From Candidatus Scatomonas merdigallinarum (GTDB lineage: Bacteria > Bacillota > Clostridia > Lachnospirales > Lachnospiraceae), in contig DVKB01000009.1 in assembly GCA_018716305.1 (NCBI GenBank), forward strand, positions 1 through 64,000: a DNA stretch of 64,000 nt, in the 5' to 3' direction. Every line of letters begins with the position of its first letter. The first letter of the stretch is position 1. Under the pieces are notes generated by a model. The model worked only from the letters and a program-made list of their open reading frames with translations. It was not told the DNA's origin and ran no database searches. Shown in pieces: positions 7,382-60,542 of this stretch. The translations under genes and the position numbers were made by a program.

Positions 7382-8245
7382 ATGAAAGAATTTCTGAAAT
7401 ATCTGCTGGCGGCAGGCCTGCTTCTTTTGTCCCTGCCGGTCCTTCTGACGGCGGTATGTTCCGGAAGGGAAGCGGTAACCCTGGAAAAGGAGACAGATCC
7501 GGAAATGCTGCTTCCTTCTATGGTGTACAGAGAAATTCCCAGAGAGGCCCACAGGGAGCTGCTGCGCGCCCAGGCCATTCTGGTTCGGAGCCGGGTCTGC
7601 CGTTCCCTTAAGGAGCCGGAGGCCCTGGCCGATCTGCTGCGGGAGAATGTAGAGTATGAGCAGCAGGTTCTCATGGATGAATCCCTGCTGCGCCGGTGCC
7701 GGGAGGCGGTTTCGGACACACAGGGGCAGGTGCTTATCTCCGGGGGGACCCTGGTGGAGGGTTCCTGGTTTGTCTGCGGAAACGGAAAGACCAGAAATGG
7801 AGCGGAGGCCGCAGGGCAGGAGGAATGCGGCTGGATGGTCAGTGTGGACAGCCCGGCGGATGTGGAGAGTCCGGATTATCTGTCGGAATTTGTCTTTTCA
7901 GAGGAGGAGCTGAGAGAGCTGCTGGGAGAGTATCTGGAACACGCGGCTCCGGGGGAGGTATTTCAGCAGATTTTCCCGGGGGGAACCGACAGCGCCGGTT
8001 ATGTGACAGAAGTTTCCGTAGGGACAGCCCGGCTGTCCGGGGAAAATTTCCGGAAGCGGCTGGGACTGCCCTCTTCCTGTTTTACCATGCAGGAGGGAGA
8101 GGACGGCCTGCATTTTCTCTGCCAGGGAAAGGGGCATGGCCTGGGCATGAGCCAGTACGGGGCGGAAAGGATGGCTCAGGAGGGAAAGACCGCGGAAGAA
8201 ATTTTAAAATATTATTTTCCCAACGCGCAGGTGGGAACTGTATAG
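7382..8245 (+). CDS. spoIID: Stage II sporulation protein D (SpoIID)
   Basis: Membrane-anchored lytic transglycosylase of the SpoIID/LytB family, which in Bacillus works with SpoIIP and SpoIIM to thin septal peptidoglycan during engulfment. The protein (287 aa) has an N-terminal anchor (about 5-25). It carries the family segment around REIPREAHREL with the following AQAILVRSRV, and the near-C-terminal signature GKGHGLGMSQYGAERMA. I choose ATG 7382 because GGTGAGG lies just upstream; a GTG nine bases earlier is part of that binding site. The next gene is a SpoIIQ-like protein, the usual neighbour in Clostridia. Together they indicate a spore-former. Confidence 0.93.
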   Translation: MKEFLKYLLAAGLLLLSLPVLLTAVCSGREAVTLEKETDPEMLLPSMVYREIPREAHRELLRAQAILVRSRVCRSLKEPEALADLLRENVEYEQQVLMDESLLRRCREAVSDTQGQVLISGGTLVEGSWFVCGNGKTRNGAEAAGQEECGWMVSVDSPADVESPDYLSEFVFSEEELRELLGEYLEHAAPGEVFQQIFPGGTDSAGYVTEVSVGTARLSGENFRKRLGLPSSCFTMQEGEDGLHFLCQGKGHGLGMSQYGAERMAQEGKTAEEILKYYFPNAQVGTV

Positions 8246-54409: not shown

Positions 54410-54500
54410 AGTCTGATCCCTCCAAATTTACATAAAATTTACGTTCATTTAACCTGGATTTGTCTGTACGGTTCTAAGGCCAGTTGATATCATTTTACAT

Positions 54501-54672
54501 ATTATGAGACAAGCGGCAAAAGGGCATGCGGGCTGCGCTGGCGCAGACAAGCATGACTTTATGGCGCGCAAAACACCGAAAAGGAGCCATTTTTCGCAGA
54601 AAAATGAGCGGATTTGAGGTGTTTTTAGGATTGCGGGAGCACGAAGTGCGGAGCAATCCGTGTCTCATGCCC
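54501..54672 (+). repeat. Palindromic intergenic repeat, full-length copy
   Basis: About 170 bases bounded by ATGAGACA (54504-54511) and its complement TGTCTCAT (54661-54668), extended inward by GGGCATG and CATGCCC-type arms. Inside are two further palindromes: CTGCGC-TG-GCGCAG, and GGATTGC..GCAC-GAA-GTGC..GCAATCC. It has no transposase gene and looks like a MITE or REP-type element. Most of the 409-base gap between the GNAT gene and sigI is this repeat. Confidence 0.8.
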
Positions 54673-54688
54673 ATTTGTCGGGCAATTT

Positions 54689-54721
54689 ATATTATGAGAC
54701 AAGCGGCAAAAGGGCATGCGG
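54689..54721 (+). repeat. Second, truncated copy of the element end
   Basis: 33 bases identical to 54499-54531, beginning ATATTATGAGACAAGCGGC, then diverging. The direct repeats are 190 bases apart and enclose the full element. Confidence 0.85.
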
Positions 54722-54769
54722 AACCTTGGAACTCTGACACTATATTATTTTTAATTGGGAGGTCTGTCA

Positions 54770-54799
54770 ACCCCGGAAAATCCGGAGATGTTCCGTATT
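54770..54799 (+). promoter_or_regulatory. SigI-type promoter upstream of sigI
   Basis: ACCCCG (54770-54775), an 18-base spacer and CGTATT (54794-54799). Bacillus subtilis SigI promoters have ACCCCC at -35 and CGAA at -10, as I recall. The same pattern with identical spacing stands before the lipoprotein gene at 56387, which supports autoregulation of sigI. An AT-rich TATATTATTTT just upstream (54751-54761) might be part of a vegetative promoter. Confidence 0.65.
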
Positions 54800-54818
54800 A
54801 CATATAAAGAGGGGCTAA

Positions 54819-55556
54819 ATGCAGAGGATGAAAAATACAGAGCATGAAATTGTAGAAATGGTCTATGCGGCTAAAACGGATACGGCGGCGGCTGACTTGC
54901 TGATCCAGAAATATCTGGGATTTATTCGCGCCGAGATGGTCAAGGCGGTTCGCAGACCGCAGAATGGATATGAGGATGAAGAAAGCATCGCCATGTTTGC
55001 TTTCTATGAAGCAATCCTGAACTATGAAAAGGGAAGAGGCGCTTTTCTGTCCTACGCGGCCAGAGCGATCCGCAGCAGATTGATCGATTACTATCGAAAA
55101 GAATGGCGGCACCGGAATCTGATTTCTCTGGATGAGCCTTTCGCCGGGGAGGAAGAGGATGCCAGCAGAAAAGATACTCTGGCAGACGGCAGGGACGAGT
55201 ATTTAGATTATGTCAATCGGGAAGCCGGTCAGAAGGAGATCCGTGAATTTGAGGAAAAACTGCGGGAATTCGGACTGTGTTTTTCCGATGTGGCGGACAA
55301 CTGTCCGAAGCAGAAGCGGACCCTGGAGGCGTGCGCCAGGGTTTTAGAATATGCCAGGGAAAATCCGCAGATTCTGGACCAGCTTCTGAGAAGCGGCCGG
55401 CTGCCTATAGGGGAACTGGCAGCGGGAACCGGTACGGACAGGAAGACCATGGAGCGGCATCGGAAATATTTGGTGGCGATCCTGTTAGCTTTTACAAATG
55501 GCTATGAGATCATTCGGGGACATCTCTGTCAGATGGATCCGGGAAGGGAGGCTTGA
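54819..55556 (+). CDS. sigI: RNA polymerase sigma factor SigI
   Basis: Alternative sigma factor of the SigI family (245 aa). Region 2 includes DEESIAMFAFYEAILNY and GAFLSYAARAIRSRLIDYYR, the -10 recognition and melting helices. The SigI-specific C-terminal domain shows EIREFEEKLREFGLCFSDV, DNCPKQKRTLEACAR and the DNA-binding end RKTMERHRKYLVAI. In Clostridium thermocellum SigI factors with RsgI partners switch on polysaccharide-degrading genes; in Bacillus SigI answers heat and wall stress. The start ATG follows AGAGGGG with a short spacer; a second ATG three codons later is an alternative. The rsgI gene begins 1 base after its stop, the usual pair. Confidence 0.95.
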   Translation: MQRMKNTEHEIVEMVYAAKTDTAAADLLIQKYLGFIRAEMVKAVRRPQNGYEDEESIAMFAFYEAILNYEKGRGAFLSYAARAIRSRLIDYYRKEWRHRNLISLDEPFAGEEEDASRKDTLADGRDEYLDYVNREAGQKEIREFEEKLREFGLCFSDVADNCPKQKRTLEACARVLEYARENPQILDQLLRSGRLPIGELAAGTGTDRKTMERHRKYLVAILLAFTNGYEIIRGHLCQMDPGREA

Positions 55557-55557
55557 A

Positions 55558-56370
55558 ATGAAATATCTTGTATTGGAAACCCACCCGGCTTACGCGATTT
55601 TGCTGGATCAGACCGGCAGATTTGTCAAAGCGGCCAACCGGCACTATCAGGTAGGAGAAACGGTGCAGAACGTGCTGGAACTTCGGGATGTTCCCGGGAA
55701 AAGCCATATCCGTCTGTACCGCCGTCTGTCGTCCGGGCTGGCAGCCGCGGCAGCCTGTTTCTGTCTGGTGTATTTCGGATATTACAGACCTAATTTTACG
55801 GCCTACGGCACGGTAAGGATGCAGATCAATCCGGATGTGGAGATGACCATCAGCAAAACGGAAAAGGTGCTGGATCTGGAAGGTTTGAATGAGGATGGCC
55901 GGAATCTGGTGTCGGATTATGAATATCAGGGCAAAGACAGAGAACAGGCCTCGGAGGAACTGATTCAGCTGGCTATGGAGATGGGGTATCTGACGGAGGG
56001 AGGAACCGTTGCTTTTACCCTTGACAGTGAGGACAGCGGCTGGCTGCAGGCGGAAGAGGAGAAAACCCTGGAGCAGATGGAGGAACGATTTGGAGAGACT
56101 ATTGTGATTCAGATCGGTCCCATGGCTGAGGAGGAGCCCATCCGGGCAGAAGAAGAGGTGGAAGTAGTGATTCCGCTTCCCACCCAGACGGAAACGCCCA
56201 CTCCCGCGGAAACTGCGGCTCCCACCCCGGTCTGGACCGCGCCCCCGGCCACGCCGGAGCCTGTCTATCCGCCGGAAACGGACGACGATGATGACGATGA
56301 CGGGGATGACGACCGGGAGGATGACAACGACGACTGGGAGGATGATGGTCCGGAGGAGGACGATGATTAA
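55558..56370 (+). CDS. rsgI: Anti-sigma-I factor RsgI
   Basis: Membrane anti-sigma factor (270 aa) that would hold SigI at the membrane. The cytoplasmic N-terminal RsgI_N domain (1-50) shows YLVLETHPAYAILLDQTGR and YQVGETVQNV. One helix spans about 58-75. Outside is the RsgI middle domain, with Asn91-Pro92 in MQINPDVEM, the peptide bond position reported to self-cleave in RsgI proteins, and GLNEDGRNLV after it. The tail is a Pro/Thr-rich stalk (about 205-240) ending in about 30 mostly Asp/Glu residues. There is no carbohydrate-binding or glycosidase domain as in C. thermocellum RsgIs. ATG 55558 is behind GGGAGG. A ligand for the poly-acidic tail is unknown; cations are a guess. Confidence 0.9.
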   Translation: MKYLVLETHPAYAILLDQTGRFVKAANRHYQVGETVQNVLELRDVPGKSHIRLYRRLSSGLAAAAACFCLVYFGYYRPNFTAYGTVRMQINPDVEMTISKTEKVLDLEGLNEDGRNLVSDYEYQGKDREQASEELIQLAMEMGYLTEGGTVAFTLDSEDSGWLQAEEEKTLEQMEERFGETIVIQIGPMAEEEPIRAEEEVEVVIPLPTQTETPTPAETAAPTPVWTAPPATPEPVYPPETDDDDDDDGDDDREDDNDDWEDDGPEEDDD

Positions 56371-56386
56371 AAAAAAGTTTTTTCCG

Positions 56387-56416
56387 ACCCCGTTTTTTCA
56401 AAAACCGATCCGTATT
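56387..56416 (+). promoter_or_regulatory. SigI-type promoter upstream of the acidic-repeat lipoprotein
   Basis: ACCCCG (56387-56392), 18 bases and CGTATT (56411-56416), the same two elements and the same spacer length as the sigI promoter. It lies 17 bases after the rsgI stop and would drive the lipoprotein, VTC, DUF4956 and CotH genes with a leader of about 50 bases. Confidence 0.68.
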
Positions 56417-56470
56417 CTTCTGGTATAAAACAAAAAGAAAAGCCTCTGAAAAAGAAAGGAGACAAAAACT

Positions 56471-57694
56471 ATGATGAAGAAGATGAACGCAAAGAGAATG
56501 GGAATCGTATTGAGCGCAGGTTTACTGGCGGCAGGACTGTCCGCCTGCGGAGCAGGAGAAAGCTCGGAAGGCAGAGACGCAAAGACAGCGCCTACCGCGG
56601 TTCCCACCCGGGAGGCGGTTCAGCCTGCGGGAACTCTGCTTCTGAGCGTGAATCCGGAGATTGAACTGGATTACGATCAGAAGGGAAATGTGCTGGCCCT
56701 GGAGGGAATTAACGCCGACGGGAAAAAAGTGGTGGAAGCCTATCCGGATTTTGAAGGAAAATCCTGCAGGGATGTGGTGGGAGATCTGGTAACGGAAATC
56801 AACGAGGCCGGTTATTTTGACACCACCATTGAGGGACATGAGAAAAATATTATTCTGAAGCTGGCTAAAGGCTCAGAGTATCCGGACGATGATTTTCTGG
56901 AAGGAATTGCCGAGGAAGTGCGGACCACCGTGGAGGCGAACCAGATCGGTTCCCAGGCGCTGGCTCTGGATGAAGACGATTATGATAAGACTCTGGGATC
57001 CAAGGGCTATATCAGCGCCGAGGCAGCCCGGGATATTATCTCCAAGCAGCTGGGCAGAACGGATCTTCAGTTTGTGGAGAAAGAATATGAACTGGATGAC
57101 GGAGTATATGAGATTGAGTTTCTTATGGACGGCGTGGGCTATGAGTATGAAGTAAACGCGGTAAACGGAAAAGTTCAGAAAGTGGAAGCTTATGATGATA
57201 CGGACTACGGTCCCAACAACGATGGCGTGACAGATTATAACGATACAGACTACGGCCCCAACAATGACGGAGTGACGGACTACGATGATACAGATTACGG
57301 CCCCAACAACGACGGAGTGACAGATTATAACGATACAGACTACGGCCCCAACAATGACGGAGTGACGGACTACGATGATACGGATTACGGCCCCAACAAC
57401 GACGGAGTGACGGACTACGATGATACGGATTACGGCCCCAACAACGACGGAGTGACGGACTACAACGATACGGACTACGGCCCGTACAACGATGGAGTGA
57501 CGGACTACAACGATACGGACTACGGCCCGTACAACGATGGAGTGACGGACTACAACGATACAGACTACGGCCCCAACAATGACGGAGTCACCGATTATTA
57601 TGACGATAATGACGGGTATACCGATTATGAGGACGATGACGACGGATATACCGATTATGAAGACGATGATGACGGATACACGGACTATGATTGA
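56471..57694 (+). CDS. Lipoprotein with RsgI-like domain, PepSY-like domain and acidic tandem repeats
   Basis: Predicted surface lipoprotein of 407 aa. The lipobox is LSAC with Cys26. After a Thr/Pro tether, residues 54-135 form an RsgI-type middle domain with SVNPEIELDYD (Asn61-Pro62, the position that self-cleaves in RsgI) and GINADGKKVVE. Residues about 178-240 form a PepSY-like fold (YISAEAARDIISKQLG, GVYEIEFLMDGVGYEYEVNA). Residues 241-375 are nine copies of a 15-residue unit, YDDTDYGPNNDGVTD with N or Y exchanges, then three 10-residue units ending GYTDYE or GYTDYD. The Asp/Asn/Gly pattern suggests cation binding. Its 3' end overlaps the VTC gene by 8 bases, so it is in that operon. I know no characterised homologue of the whole protein. 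Confidence 0.85.
   Translation: MMKKMNAKRMGIVLSAGLLAAGLSACGAGESSEGRDAKTAPTAVPTREAVQPAGTLLLSVNPEIELDYDQKGNVLALEGINADGKKVVEAYPDFEGKSCRDVVGDLVTEINEAGYFDTTIEGHEKNIILKLAKGSEYPDDDFLEGIAEEVRTTVEANQIGSQALALDEDDYDKTLGSKGYISAEAARDIISKQLGRTDLQFVEKEYELDDGVYEIEFLMDGVGYEYEVNAVNGKVQKVEAYDDTDYGPNNDGVTDYNDTDYGPNNDGVTDYDDTDYGPNNDGVTDYNDTDYGPNNDGVTDYDDTDYGPNNDGVTDYDDTDYGPNNDGVTDYNDTDYGPYNDGVTDYNDTDYGPYNDGVTDYNDTDYGPNNDGVTDYYDDNDGYTDYEDDDDGYTDYEDDDDGYTDYD
57191..57595 (+). repeat. Nine tandem 45-bp coding repeats
   Basis: Nine in-frame 45-bp units encode the 15-residue acidic repeat of the lipoprotein. Units differ at few positions, mostly GAT/AAC in the second codon and AAC/TAC in the ninth. Three shorter 30-bp units follow at 57596-57685. 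The uniformity suggests recent expansion or copy-number change. Confidence 0.95.
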
Positions 57695-58385
57695 TGTTCC
57701 GGGAGCCGTACGGTCTCTGCGCCATGAATTCAAGTATCAGATCAGCCTTCGGGAGGATCTGATACTGGCCGGGAGGCTGAGAAGCCTGCTGGAACACGAC
57801 CGGCATGCCGGGAAGGATGGTTCCTACCGGGTTACCAGCCTGTATTTTGATACTCCCTACGATCGGGCTTACCGTCAGAAGCTCAACGGAGCGGCCAGGC
57901 GGGAGAAGTTCCGGCTGCGGTACTACGGAGCGGATACGGGAGTTATCCGGCTGGAGAAAAAATACAAGATCAACGGCCTGTGCGGGAAGCGGAGCGCCCG
58001 GCTGACTCTGCGGCAGACAGAGGAGCTGCTGGCGGGAAGGATTGACTTTCTGCTAGAGAGCCGGGAGCCTCTGCTGACGGAATTTTACAGTAAGATCCGG
58101 GGACAGGGACTGGAGAAAAAAACCATTGTCTGTTATGACCGGGAGGCTTTTTGCTTTGAACCGGGCAACGTCCGGGTGACTCTGGACCGGAATGTGCGGA
58201 CCGGACTGGGAAGCACGGATTTTCTGGATACGAACCGGCTGAAGCCGGGGGCGCTGGAGAACTGTACCGTGCTGGAAGTAAAGTATGACGCGTTTCTTCC
58301 GGATCTGGTCCGCATGGCTGTCCGGGTGCCGGGAAGACAGGCGGCTGCCTGTTCCAAATACGCCCAGTGCAGGCGGTTTGACTGA
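57687..58385 (+). CDS. VTC domain protein (polyphosphate polymerase-like)
   Basis: Cytoplasmic protein of 232 aa with the triphosphate-tunnel fold of the VTC domain, which in yeast Vtc4 makes polyphosphate from ATP. Basic and acidic tunnel strands are seen: RHEFKYQIS, SLYFDTPYDRAY, REKFRLRYYG, IRLEKKYKING, VRVTLDRNVRTG and LEVKYDAFLP. Bacterial VTC proteins often stand beside DUF4956 and CotH genes, as here. ATG 57687 overlaps the lipoprotein end by 8 bases, implying translational coupling; an upstream extension would read through the repeats in another frame and is rejected. Whether it makes polyphosphate or binds another phosphate compound is not known. Confidence 0.9.
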   Translation: MIDVPGAVRSLRHEFKYQISLREDLILAGRLRSLLEHDRHAGKDGSYRVTSLYFDTPYDRAYRQKLNGAARREKFRLRYYGADTGVIRLEKKYKINGLCGKRSARLTLRQTEELLAGRIDFLLESREPLLTEFYSKIRGQGLEKKTIVCYDREAFCFEPGNVRVTLDRNVRTGLGSTDFLDTNRLKPGALENCTVLEVKYDAFLPDLVRMAVRVPGRQAAACSKYAQCRRFD

Positions 58386-58396
58386 AAGGAGTAAGT

Positions 58397-59068
58397 ATGA
58401 CATTCCAGGATATTTTTCGCTCAGACTTTCTGGAGAATATGGCCAGTATTTCTCTGCTGGATATGGTACTGGCCCTGTCCCTGTCTTTTCTGCTGGGCCT
58501 GTTTCTGTTTTTGGTTTATAAAAAAACCTACGCGGGAGTTATGTATTCCGCCAGTTTTGGAGTGACGCTCATTGCCATGGCAATGATTACCACAGTATTG
58601 ATTATGACTGTAGTCAGCAACGTAGTGCTTTCTCTGGGCATGGTGGGAGCTCTGTCTATTGTTCGCTTCCGCACTGCCATTAAGGAACCCATGGATATCG
58701 CCTTTCTCTTCTGGAGTATCGCGGTGGGAATCGTGCTGGCGGCTGGCCTGATCCCCCTGGCGGTATTCGGCAGTCTTCTGATCGGACTGGTGCTGATCCT
58801 CTTTTCTGCCGGGAAAAATGTGGATCATCCCTATATTCTTGTAATACACTGTGAAAACGGGGACCAGGAAAAAGAAATCCGGACCTTTGTGGAGGCCAGC
58901 GTAAAGCGCATGAGCCTGAAAAGCAAAAGCGTCAGTCCGGGCAGGATCGAACTGAATTATGAAATCCGTCTGCGGAAGGAAAGCAGCGAGTTTGTCAATG
59001 AACTGGACCGGCTTCCGGGAGTGTCCCAGGCGGTGCTGGTTTCCTATAACGGAGATTATATGGGGTAA
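58397..59068 (+). CDS. DUF4956 membrane protein
   Basis: Membrane protein of 223 aa with a DUF4956 domain. About four helices lie in residues 18-135, including the family hallmark GMVGALSIVRFRTAIKEPMD between helices. The C-terminal 90 residues form a soluble alpha/beta domain (ILVIHCENGDQEKEIRTFVE). It sits between the VTC and CotH genes, a conserved trio in Firmicutes; the function of DUF4956 is unknown. It starts 11 bases after the VTC stop with GGAGTAAGT as binding site. Confidence 0.9.
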   Translation: MTFQDIFRSDFLENMASISLLDMVLALSLSFLLGLFLFLVYKKTYAGVMYSASFGVTLIAMAMITTVLIMTVVSNVVLSLGMVGALSIVRFRTAIKEPMDIAFLFWSIAVGIVLAAGLIPLAVFGSLLIGLVLILFSAGKNVDHPYILVIHCENGDQEKEIRTFVEASVKRMSLKSKSVSPGRIELNYEIRLRKESSEFVNELDRLPGVSQAVLVSYNGDYMG

Positions 59069-59072
59069 CAGT

Positions 59073-60542
59073 ATGCTGAAGCATAAACATATTGACAAGA
59101 TCTGTTTCGGAGCTATGGCGGCGGCGGTACTGCTGACTCTGCTGCTGCTGTCCGGAAAGGCTCCCGGCGTTTCCAGAGCCAGTGCCAGCCCGGAATATAA
59201 AAGCCGGCTGTTTGATTCGGACCGGGTTCACACCATAGACATCCGTATGGAAGATTGGGAGACATTTCTGGAGACAGCGGCGGAGGAGACCTATTCCCCC
59301 TGTACCCTGGTGATCGACGGGGAAACTTTTGAGCAGGCGGGGCTGAGGGCCAAGGGAAATAATTCTCTGCGGCTGACTGAGGATTACGGTCTGCGCCGAT
59401 ACAGCCTGAAGGTGGAGTTTGATCACTATCAGGAGGGAAACAGCTATTACGGGCTGGATAAACTGTCCCTGGACGCTTCTTTTCAGGATAACAGTTATCT
59501 GAAGACCTATATGGTCTACGATATGATGCATTATATGCAGGTGCCCGCCCCTCTGTGCAGTTACGCGCAGGTATCTGTAAACGGGGAACCCTGGGGGCTT
59601 TTCCTGGCAGTGGAGGAGCCGGAGGAGGCATTTGCCAGACGCTGCTTCGGAAAACAGCACGGGAACCTGTACAAACCGGATTACCGTTCCCTCAAGGCGG
59701 AGAACGCGGATGTGGCTCTGCAGTATGTGGATGACGACCCGGACAGCTATGAAAATATTTTCAGAAAGGCAAAATTTGATGTGACGGAGGCAGACAAACA
59801 GAGGCTGATCCGGGCGCTGAAAATTCTGGATTCCGGAGAAAATCTGGATCAGGCGGTAAATGTGGATCAGGTGCTGCGGTATTTTACGGTGCAGGTTTTT
59901 GTCATGAACTGGGACAGTTATCTGGGACGGACCGGCCACAACTATTTCCTTTATGAGGAGGATGGAGTGATCAGCATGCTGCCCTGGGATTATAATCTTG
60001 CCTTCGGCACCTATGCTCTGGGAATGACGGATCCGATCCGGGATCCCAATATACTGATTAATTATCCTATTTTTACTCCGGCGGAAGGGGAGGTCATGAG
60101 GGAGAGGCCTCTCTATCATAACCTTATGAAAAACGACCGGTATTTTCAGCAGTATCAGAAATATTTTGACCAGTTTCTAAGGGAGTATTTTGAGAGCGGA
60201 CTGTTTTCTGTAAGGCTGCGGGAGGCGGCGGAGAGAATTGCCCCCTATGTGCGGAAGGATCCCACGGCGTTCTGTACCTGGGAAGATCATCTGCAGGCGG
60301 TGGATACCCTGGAACAGGTCTGCCTGCTGCGGGCGGAAAGCGCCAGAGGACAGCTGGAGGGAAAAATCCCCGGAACCTTCCGGGGGCAGCAGGAAGATCC
60401 GGGGGCGGGCGTGGACGCTTCCCATATAGATTTGAGAGAACTGGGAGATTTTGAAGATCTGGAACAGGCGGCGAAAAGAGCTGCCTGTTTTTATAATGGA
60501 ACAGGGAAATCCTCTTGCCTGCCGCCAGGTTCTGCACTATAA
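59073..60542 (+). CDS. CotH family kinase
   Basis: Protein kinase-like CotH family member (489 aa). Bacillus CotH phosphorylates serines in the repeat region of spore coat protein CotB. Here an N-terminal hydrophobic anchor (about 10-27) predicts an extracytoplasmic kinase domain. Seen: GLRAKGNNSLR, YSLKVEFDHY, KLSLDASFQDNSYLKTYMVY, SVNGEPWGLFLAVEEPEE, NWDSYLGRTGHNYFLY (Asp281) and LPWDYNLAFG (Asp306, metal-binding). The start is ATG 59073, 4 bases after the DUF4956 stop; a longer frame into that gene is not used. The acidic-repeat lipoprotein of the same operon, rich in Thr and Tyr, is a candidate substrate by context only. No spore coat genes are nearby. Confidence 0.9.
   Translation: MLKHKHIDKICFGAMAAAVLLTLLLLSGKAPGVSRASASPEYKSRLFDSDRVHTIDIRMEDWETFLETAAEETYSPCTLVIDGETFEQAGLRAKGNNSLRLTEDYGLRRYSLKVEFDHYQEGNSYYGLDKLSLDASFQDNSYLKTYMVYDMMHYMQVPAPLCSYAQVSVNGEPWGLFLAVEEPEEAFARRCFGKQHGNLYKPDYRSLKAENADVALQYVDDDPDSYENIFRKAKFDVTEADKQRLIRALKILDSGENLDQAVNVDQVLRYFTVQVFVMNWDSYLGRTGHNYFLYEEDGVISMLPWDYNLAFGTYALGMTDPIRDPNILINYPIFTPAEGEVMRERPLYHNLMKNDRYFQQYQKYFDQFLREYFESGLFSVRLREAAERIAPYVRKDPTAFCTWEDHLQAVDTLEQVCLLRAESARGQLEGKIPGTFRGQQEDPGAGVDASHIDLRELGDFEDLEQAAKRAACFYNGTGKSSCLPPGSAL

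Follow-up and report, generated by a model that had tools for sequence, protein, structure and literature searches.

A SigI-type gene cassette from a Lachnospiraceae genome places a CotH-family protein beside a repeat-tailed lipoprotein that shares its domain with the anti-sigma factor

Positions 1 to 64,000 of contig DVKB01000009.1 from Candidatus Scatomonas merdigallinarum (Lachnospiraceae; assembly GCA_018716305.1), the stretch analyzed here and hereafter called the window, carry at 54770–60542 a cassette of six genes for a SigI-like sigma factor, an RsgI anti-sigma factor, a lipoprotein with a repeat tail, and proteins of the VTC, DUF4956 and CotH families. The anti-sigma factor and the lipoprotein have an RsgI_M/SEAL-type autocleavage domain in common and, in most relatives, the kind of tail as well, and the tripeptide [ST]-[DGN]-Y that marks the lipoprotein tails goes together with an adjacent CotH gene.

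Gene content of the cassette

The gene calls bear out the co-directional arrangement given in the initial annotation, with all six genes on the + strand, a 1-base gap between sigI and rsgI, an 8-base overlap of the lipoprotein and VTC genes, and gaps of 11 and 4 bases at the VTC/DUF4956 and DUF4956/CotH junctions. RsgI_M, VTC, DUF4956, CotH and sigma-70 region 2 all score above their Pfam cut-offs in the window proteins. The sigma factor (54819–55556, 245 residues; Pfam, NCBIfam) has ten SigI models as its ten best NCBIfam matches, all below curated cut-offs (155 bits against 185 for TIGR02895, 160 against 306 for NF006178), SigI thus being its nearest family. The anti-sigma factor RsgI (55558–56370) combines a weak RsgI_N match (18.2 bits, Pfam cut-off 25), a hydrophobic stretch at residues 60–76 that looks helix-like by eye while no stretch exceeds the hydropathy cut-off of 1.6, an RsgI_M domain (78.9 bits, above cut-off) with Asn91-Pro92, a Pro/Thr linker and an Asp-rich tail lacking [ST][DGN]Y. 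The 407-residue lipoprotein (56471–57694) consists of a lipobox assigned by eye, an RsgI_M/SEAL-type domain with Asn-Pro, which profile and structure comparison places in the RsgI periplasmic fold, a PepSY domain (Pfam) and the repeat tail. Its repeat array (57197–57690) comprises nine DTDYGP[NY]NDGVTDYx units followed by D/G/Y-rich units, and the protein contains 21 [ST][DGN]Y tripeptides, every one TDY.

The VTC-domain protein (57687–58385; Pfam, 116.3 bits) has a polyphosphate-polymerase fold and a profile match to VTC4 (E 6e-6); its conserved RLRYYG and LEKK motifs align to VTC4 and contain basic residues that may correspond to those of the VTC4 catalytic tunnel, and a hydropathy scan found no membrane stretch in it. 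The catalytic fold is one it would share with the yeast VTC complex, from which the present case, with its predicted activity, differs in its DUF4956/MgtC-like partner. DUF4956 (58397–59068; Pfam) is a helical membrane protein that ends, like MgtC, in an ACT-like domain; its structure model is weak (pLDDT, a per-residue confidence score, 74), and the ACT-like end alone matches known folds, MgtC included. The CotH-family kinase-like protein (59073–60542) belongs to its family by Pfam (193.8 bits) and by a match to the solved structure 5jd9 (E 3e-15), to which its Asp motifs PWDYN (80/81 sequences) and NWDSY (81/81) align as candidate counterparts of D228 and D251 of Bacillus subtilis CotH. Since its N-terminal hydrophobic anchor (residues 6–30) follows a basic start, the enzyme part is predicted to lie outside the cell, alongside the tails. 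The host genome (2.5 Mb, 34 contigs) yields one strong SigI match, one CotH, one VTC and one DUF4956, so the window cassette is the sole such set there.

Distribution and promoters

Genome contigs were scanned with CotH and the best 80 of 118 loci (L007–L086) compared. CotH is present in all 80, DUF4956 in 72, VTC in 67, the lipoprotein in 54 and sigI in 47; gene order is conserved, and absent genes are mostly lost to contig ends, often within the repeat array. Where at least 2.6 kb lies 5′ of the lipoprotein, sigI and rsgI are found in 43 of 44 loci, the exception (L011) retaining a SigI-type site, and every CotH locus with more than 4.5 kb upstream has the lipoprotein (45/45). Identity of the window proteins to these relatives amounts to 62–76% for CotH, VTC and DUF4956, 52–73% for SigI and about 31–61% for RsgI and the lipoprotein. 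Flanking open reading frames are not common to the loci (the commonest family there, judged by eye to be an ABC transporter, reaches 14/80), and the cassette unit therefore appears to span sigI to CotH. Whole-genome profile matches to the lipoprotein occur in 21/397 genomes of the family and 12/391 of the class, the window's genome being in both sets. The many genomic contexts in which the cassette is found might speak for chance or selfish clustering, with SigI/RsgI and the enzymes adjacent but without shared function; we hold this to be scarcely credible, as dozens of records preserve both the gene order and the promoters despite 31–76% protein identity to the window.

A mobile element was also considered and rejected, there being no phage record, three plasmid records, all below 60% identity, and no shared flanking element; a viral-contig scan with DUF4956 returned nothing. 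Poultry is hinted at in at least 47 of the 80 titles, with several families named and CotH 65–73% identical to that of the window, and loci L054 and L055 have 99.9% identical CotH DNA in records titled as different genera. This suggests spread among bird-gut Clostridia, or else sampling and binning effects.

Two SigI-type promoters of the form ACCCC-N19-CGTATT lie on the + strand at 54770–54799, before sigI, and at 56387–56416, before the lipoprotein. None of 100 shuffles of the window contained two such sites; genome-wide (2.5 Mb) there are three matches as compared to two for a backward control pattern, so that what sets the two window promoters apart is where they lie and how they are spaced, and not merely that they are rare. 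Both, sigI's own included, agree with the published description of SigI promoters, in which the −35 element is an A-tract and the −10 element CGWA (PMC10575876). Among relatives a SigI-type site precedes sigI in 44 of 46 regions, in 43 of them, window included, at −36 to −53 and in L082 elsewhere. For the lipoprotein the figure is 39 of 43 loci; background matches occur at 0.27 per kb, overlapping starts being counted twice. The initial annotation had named two matching SigI-like promoters and a SigI/RsgI pair apparently dedicated to this module; both points are supported, the promoters are conserved and the neighborhood recurs. The locus scan thereby excludes the case that would have refuted that annotation, a neighborhood confined to one genome. 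In L014, four successive SigI-type sites spaced 105–115 bases apart lie 5′ of the lipoprotein match starting at 7534, and in L151 sigI is split into two adjacent open pieces beside an rsgI and a lipoprotein gene that look intact.

Cassette variants and the VTC and DUF4956 proteins

Five loci of the family (L092, L094, L110, L116, L117) have sigI, rsgI and the lipoprotein but none of the three enzyme genes, and these five together with two contig-end loci retain SigI-type sites at both places (7/7 each; the search covered 480 bases, with some sites falling inside a frame, frames running from stop to stop). VTC and DUF4956 are missing from the cassette in 5 of the 54 loci with lipoprotein and CotH (L039, L060, L076, L080, L084), all of which retain the tripeptide motif. 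These variants point to a core of sigI, rsgI and the lipoprotein, to which CotH was added and VTC-DUF4956 as a further addition, and we have rejected VTC and DUF4956 as required cassette enzymes, since CotH loci exist without them locally. Three genomes with CotH and no local pair (G223, G320, G486) do have the pair elsewhere (3/3); with DUF4956 in 145 of 200 family genomes, such a distant pair is no evidence either way.

The same loci bear on a reading in which VTC-made polyphosphate is attached to the lipoprotein and CotH is not involved; loading with (poly)phosphate was an alternative voiced in the initial annotation, and the reading is in keeping with the VTC fold and its conserved basic residues. 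Lysine polyphosphorylation requires Lys, whereas the 168-residue tail of the window lipoprotein contains zero Lys and zero Arg; moreover, 20 other DUF4956 loci of the family (19 with VTC; taken as best Pfam scores, not as a random draw) include none with a motif-rich protein nearby (0/20), and a search of these stretches with the CotH profile of the module was negative. Together with the five loci lacking VTC and DUF4956, this renders the reading very improbable, and (poly)phosphate loading by VTC is unsupported in the form originally put forward. In L073 and P0075 the array and VTC form one open frame; slippage of the frame, in the array or in assemblies, could thus join lipoprotein and VTC.

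Repeat tails of RsgI and the lipoprotein

The Asn-Pro pair of the lipoprotein domain (as VNPE or INPE) is kept in 54/55 loci and in 119/120 among the homologs listed. Among the nine 15-residue tail units of the window, 168 of 205 pairwise codon differences are synonymous, so the peptide unit of the repeat has been kept. Tails were excised from 45 RsgI proteins and 53 lipoproteins, the window included and the others from the CotH-picked loci; L073 was excluded, as its array continues into the VTC frame. Of the Tyr residues of RsgI tails, 289 of 353 fall inside [ST]-[DGN]-Y (27 on average and at most 44 after shuffling), and of those of lipoprotein tails 827 of 895 do (77 on average and at most 99); the motif is present in 43/45 and 53/53 tails, respectively. 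In 30/45 RsgI tails even the core of the repeat, DTDYGP or DGVTDY, occurs. The two tails share more 4-mers within a locus (0.195) than between loci (0.140; at most 0.173 in 5000 permutations, n = 43). The acidic repeats described for the lipoprotein in the initial annotation are there, while the autocleavage domain shared with RsgI and, in most relatives, the shared tail had been overlooked.

Link between the tripeptide motif and CotH

Because the 80 loci had been picked by CotH, lipoproteins were then sought irrespective of it, giving 33 loci from 32 genomes, of which 26 were judged; at least some of their organisms are also represented in the CotH-picked set. With CotH adjacent, 18 of 18 tails have the motif in 8–32 copies each (window, L093, L096, L097, L103, a divergent locus, L111–L113, L118–L121, L143–L145, L147, L150, L153), and with no CotH adjacent, 0 of 8 have it (L092, L094, L110, L116, L117, L146, L151, L152), corresponding to a Fisher probability of 6e-7 with kinship ignored. 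Both L152 and L153 were counted although their stretches yielded neither sigI nor rsgI; a single motif lies outside the tail in L152, and CotH-less L117 has one in its RsgI tail. A tree built from the domain without the tails shows four changes of CotH state, each accompanied by a change of the motif. The nearest contrast lies within one genus, with CotH and motif in the window versus neither in L110, whose genome is without any CotH. A whole-genome Pfam search for CotH in five of the eight CotH-less genomes found none in four, including G035, G373 and G343 (68% complete); the fifth, G003, has three distant CotH genes. CotH is adjacent and the motif retained without a local VTC-DUF4956 pair in L112, L120 and L145.

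Seven loci were dropped. L095, L114 and L115 are cut off by a contig end within or close to the lipoprotein, L114 and L115 showing no motif, and L122, L148, L149 and L154 have a SEAL-type domain and several PepSY domains, with no repeat tail, motif or CotH in the stretch; in L148, L149 and L154, another branch of the lipoprotein family, the PepSY domains replace the tail. Whole-genome searches for dropped loci found no CotH in G202 and one elsewhere in G244, and the distant CotH genes of G003 and G244 have no motif-rich neighbor.

A competing account regards the tails as cation- or wall-binding disordered arms, with CotH acting elsewhere and the motif a by-product of the repeat family. Asp makes up 30% of residues over the 53 lipoprotein tails, CotH-less tails are acidic too, and the repeat is one we would liken to TSP3-type DG-x-x-D loops; a Pfam scan of the lipoprotein gave no TSP3 match. 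L153, however, keeps S/T-N-Y in an Asn-rich tail with CotH adjacent, whereas acidic CotH-less tails are without the tripeptide; the pattern tracks CotH and not charge, and we consider this account unlikely. The same comparison removes acidity, which the initial annotation had noted in the repeats, as the tail invariant. The suggestion of that annotation that CotH possibly acts on the lipoprotein tail fares better: as the motif is found in every judged locus with CotH and in none without, CotH is likely the tail modifier, and the switch would read the state of the tail.

Proposed surface circuit

In C. thermocellum, RsgI self-cleavage is followed by release of beta-1, after which RseP and ClpXP free SigI (PMC12203970), and the substrates of B. 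subtilis CotH are CotG, which it phosphorylates, and CotB, whose C-terminal tandem repeats it polyphosphorylates (PMC7821199); the CotB phosphopeptide pSLKpSSDYQpSSK contains S-D-Y (PMC7821199). By analogy, RsgI and the lipoprotein of the cassette would self-cleave at Asn-Pro, the outer part being held non-covalently, and CotH, anchored outside, would phosphorylate Ser/Thr of the motif. Binding of a ligand to the tails, or a pulling force on them, would then shed the lipoprotein and lead to RsgI degradation alike, and freed SigI would remake RsgI, the lipoprotein and the enzymes, with the sensor RsgI serving as a mimic of the regulated product. We give roughly even odds (about 0.5) to this SigI-controlled circuit, in which a lipoprotein predicted to cleave itself would be phosphorylated by CotH on its [ST]-[DGN]-Y tail, while RsgI, which has the same domain, would report the state of the coat to SigI. 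VTC and DUF4956 may assist, perhaps by supplying a phosphate donor outside, as VTC with a membrane protein such as DUF4956 could make polyphosphate and pass it outward. The complete version, wherein polyphosphate made and exported by VTC and DUF4956 is used by anchored CotH on the Ser/Thr-x-Tyr repeats of a self-cleaved, sheddable lipoprotein, RsgI is a decoy copy, and SigI gauges and renews the remaining modified coat, is in our view doubtful.

Several observations weigh against the proposed circuit. Two RsgI tails lack the motif, that of L084 and that of the window, whose end is simply Asp/Glu, so RsgI is not necessarily a CotH target here, and the within-locus match of the tails, from which lineage was not removed, may partly reflect lineage. 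Of 118 homologous tails, 21 are without the motif, CotH state being known for a minority only. Just two of the four changes on the tree fall on well supported branches, a sign test on them is unable to reach 0.05, and the association of motif and CotH could in part be due to kinship. L095 has the motif in a 99% complete genome (G095) in which a genome search found no CotH, VTC or DUF4956, its contig ending in the array. Of the eight CotH-less genomes, G720, G536 and G751 lay outside the genome-wide CotH search, and adjacent CotH was sought by the module's own profile, which could miss divergent ones. Finally, the CotB phosphate sits on the Ser preceding S-D-Y and not on the tripeptide's Ser (PMC7821199), and a kinase outside the cell would be without an obvious ATP supply.

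Comparison with known systems

The cassette resembles the SigI/RsgI systems of C. thermocellum and B. subtilis in its sigI-rsgI operon and A-tract/CGWA promoters (PMC10575876) and in an RsgI_M domain with Asn-Pro and the sensor end outside (PMC12203970). It differs in that the sensor end is a repeat or acidic tail instead of a carbohydrate-binding module, and in that SigI would control a product which likewise combines a SEAL domain with a tail of this kind. A SigI6-dependent CotH-dockerin gene, cseP, has been published (PMC4711584). With the CotH-CotB-CotG spore coat of B. subtilis the cassette has in common that an enzyme of the CotH family neighbors a tandem-repeat protein, the repeats there being disordered, Ser-rich and polyphosphorylated by CotH (PMC7821199); there the setting is the spore coat, control is by SigK and the repeats are rich in Ser, Lys and Arg, whereas here a membrane-anchored enzyme, acidic repeats and SigI are found.

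Gram-positive Pel loci also contain CotH, VTC and DUF4956 as contiguous genes, adjoining pelDEADAFG in streptococci and clostridia, and add DUF4832, with no SigI/RsgI or SEAL lipoprotein seen in the portions of these papers compared (PMC7112168, PMC12345266). In S. intermedius, Pel rose on deletion of SIR_1592, which encodes an MgtC/ACT membrane protein and which we equate with the DUF4956 gene, and fell on deletion of SIR_1594 (CotH), either deletion cutting aggregation by more than half in one medium with Pel still made (PMC12345266). Such effects, and the sensing of polysaccharides by C. thermocellum RsgI (PMC12203970), would fit a reading in which VTC, DUF4956 and CotH serve a secreted polymer that the tail binds and RsgI senses. 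We find it improbable for this cassette, as there is no glycosyltransferase among its genes or the four scanned neighbors, flanking genes are not conserved, and the loci reduced to sigI, rsgI and the lipoprotein retain their two SigI-type sites; pelDEADAFG is not adjacent to the cassette, as judged from those four neighbors, the rest of the genome not having been searched for pel.

Closest in gene list is NELoc-2 of C. perfringens, compared by its table only, which has a SigI-type sigma factor, a 348-residue cell-wall protein, VTC and CotH, and a membrane-located tubulin/FtsZ-like protein where DUF4956 would be expected (PMC2879425). That table has no separate lipoprotein, a resolvase and a second VTC pair intervene, and the part of the paper compared does not treat the locus as a regulon or circuit (PMC2879425). 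The initial annotation knew of no described system of this composition, which stands insofar as no regulon account was met and needs amending for this similar gene list. Among the listed titles and abstract beginnings of open-licence papers, none links a SEAL-domain lipoprotein to CotH and none has an anti-sigma factor as mimic of a regulon product. The module thus appears to be of the SigI/RsgI kind, with the attached CotH-substrate pair as the putative new element. SigI/RsgI pairs are known as polysaccharide or wall sensors, and a sensor-like output was not met in the part of that literature compared; a sensor and a regulated surface protein with a common self-cleaving domain and usually a repeat tail suggest feedback by mimicry. 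With the tripeptide, the CotH-VTC-DUF4956 enzymes gain a concrete candidate substrate, so that the function of these enzymes can be tested directly, and the question is raised of the phosphate donor outside the cell.

Surroundings of the cassette

The four scanned neighbor genes encode NlpC/P60, GNAT, AIRC and hexapeptide proteins. Directly 5′ of the sigI promoter, window positions 54490–54735 form a dispersed repeat with 43 genome matches, itself included and mostly partial, within which a 33-base direct repeat occurs at 54499 and 54689. On contig 26 of the same genome (L002:334-2160), a second RsgI_M anti-sigma-like protein lies beside a sigma factor resembling, by eye, the extracytoplasmic function (ECF) type, and the region also encodes a secreted-looking protein bearing DSDGDGVCDY repeats, the same theme built from other parts.

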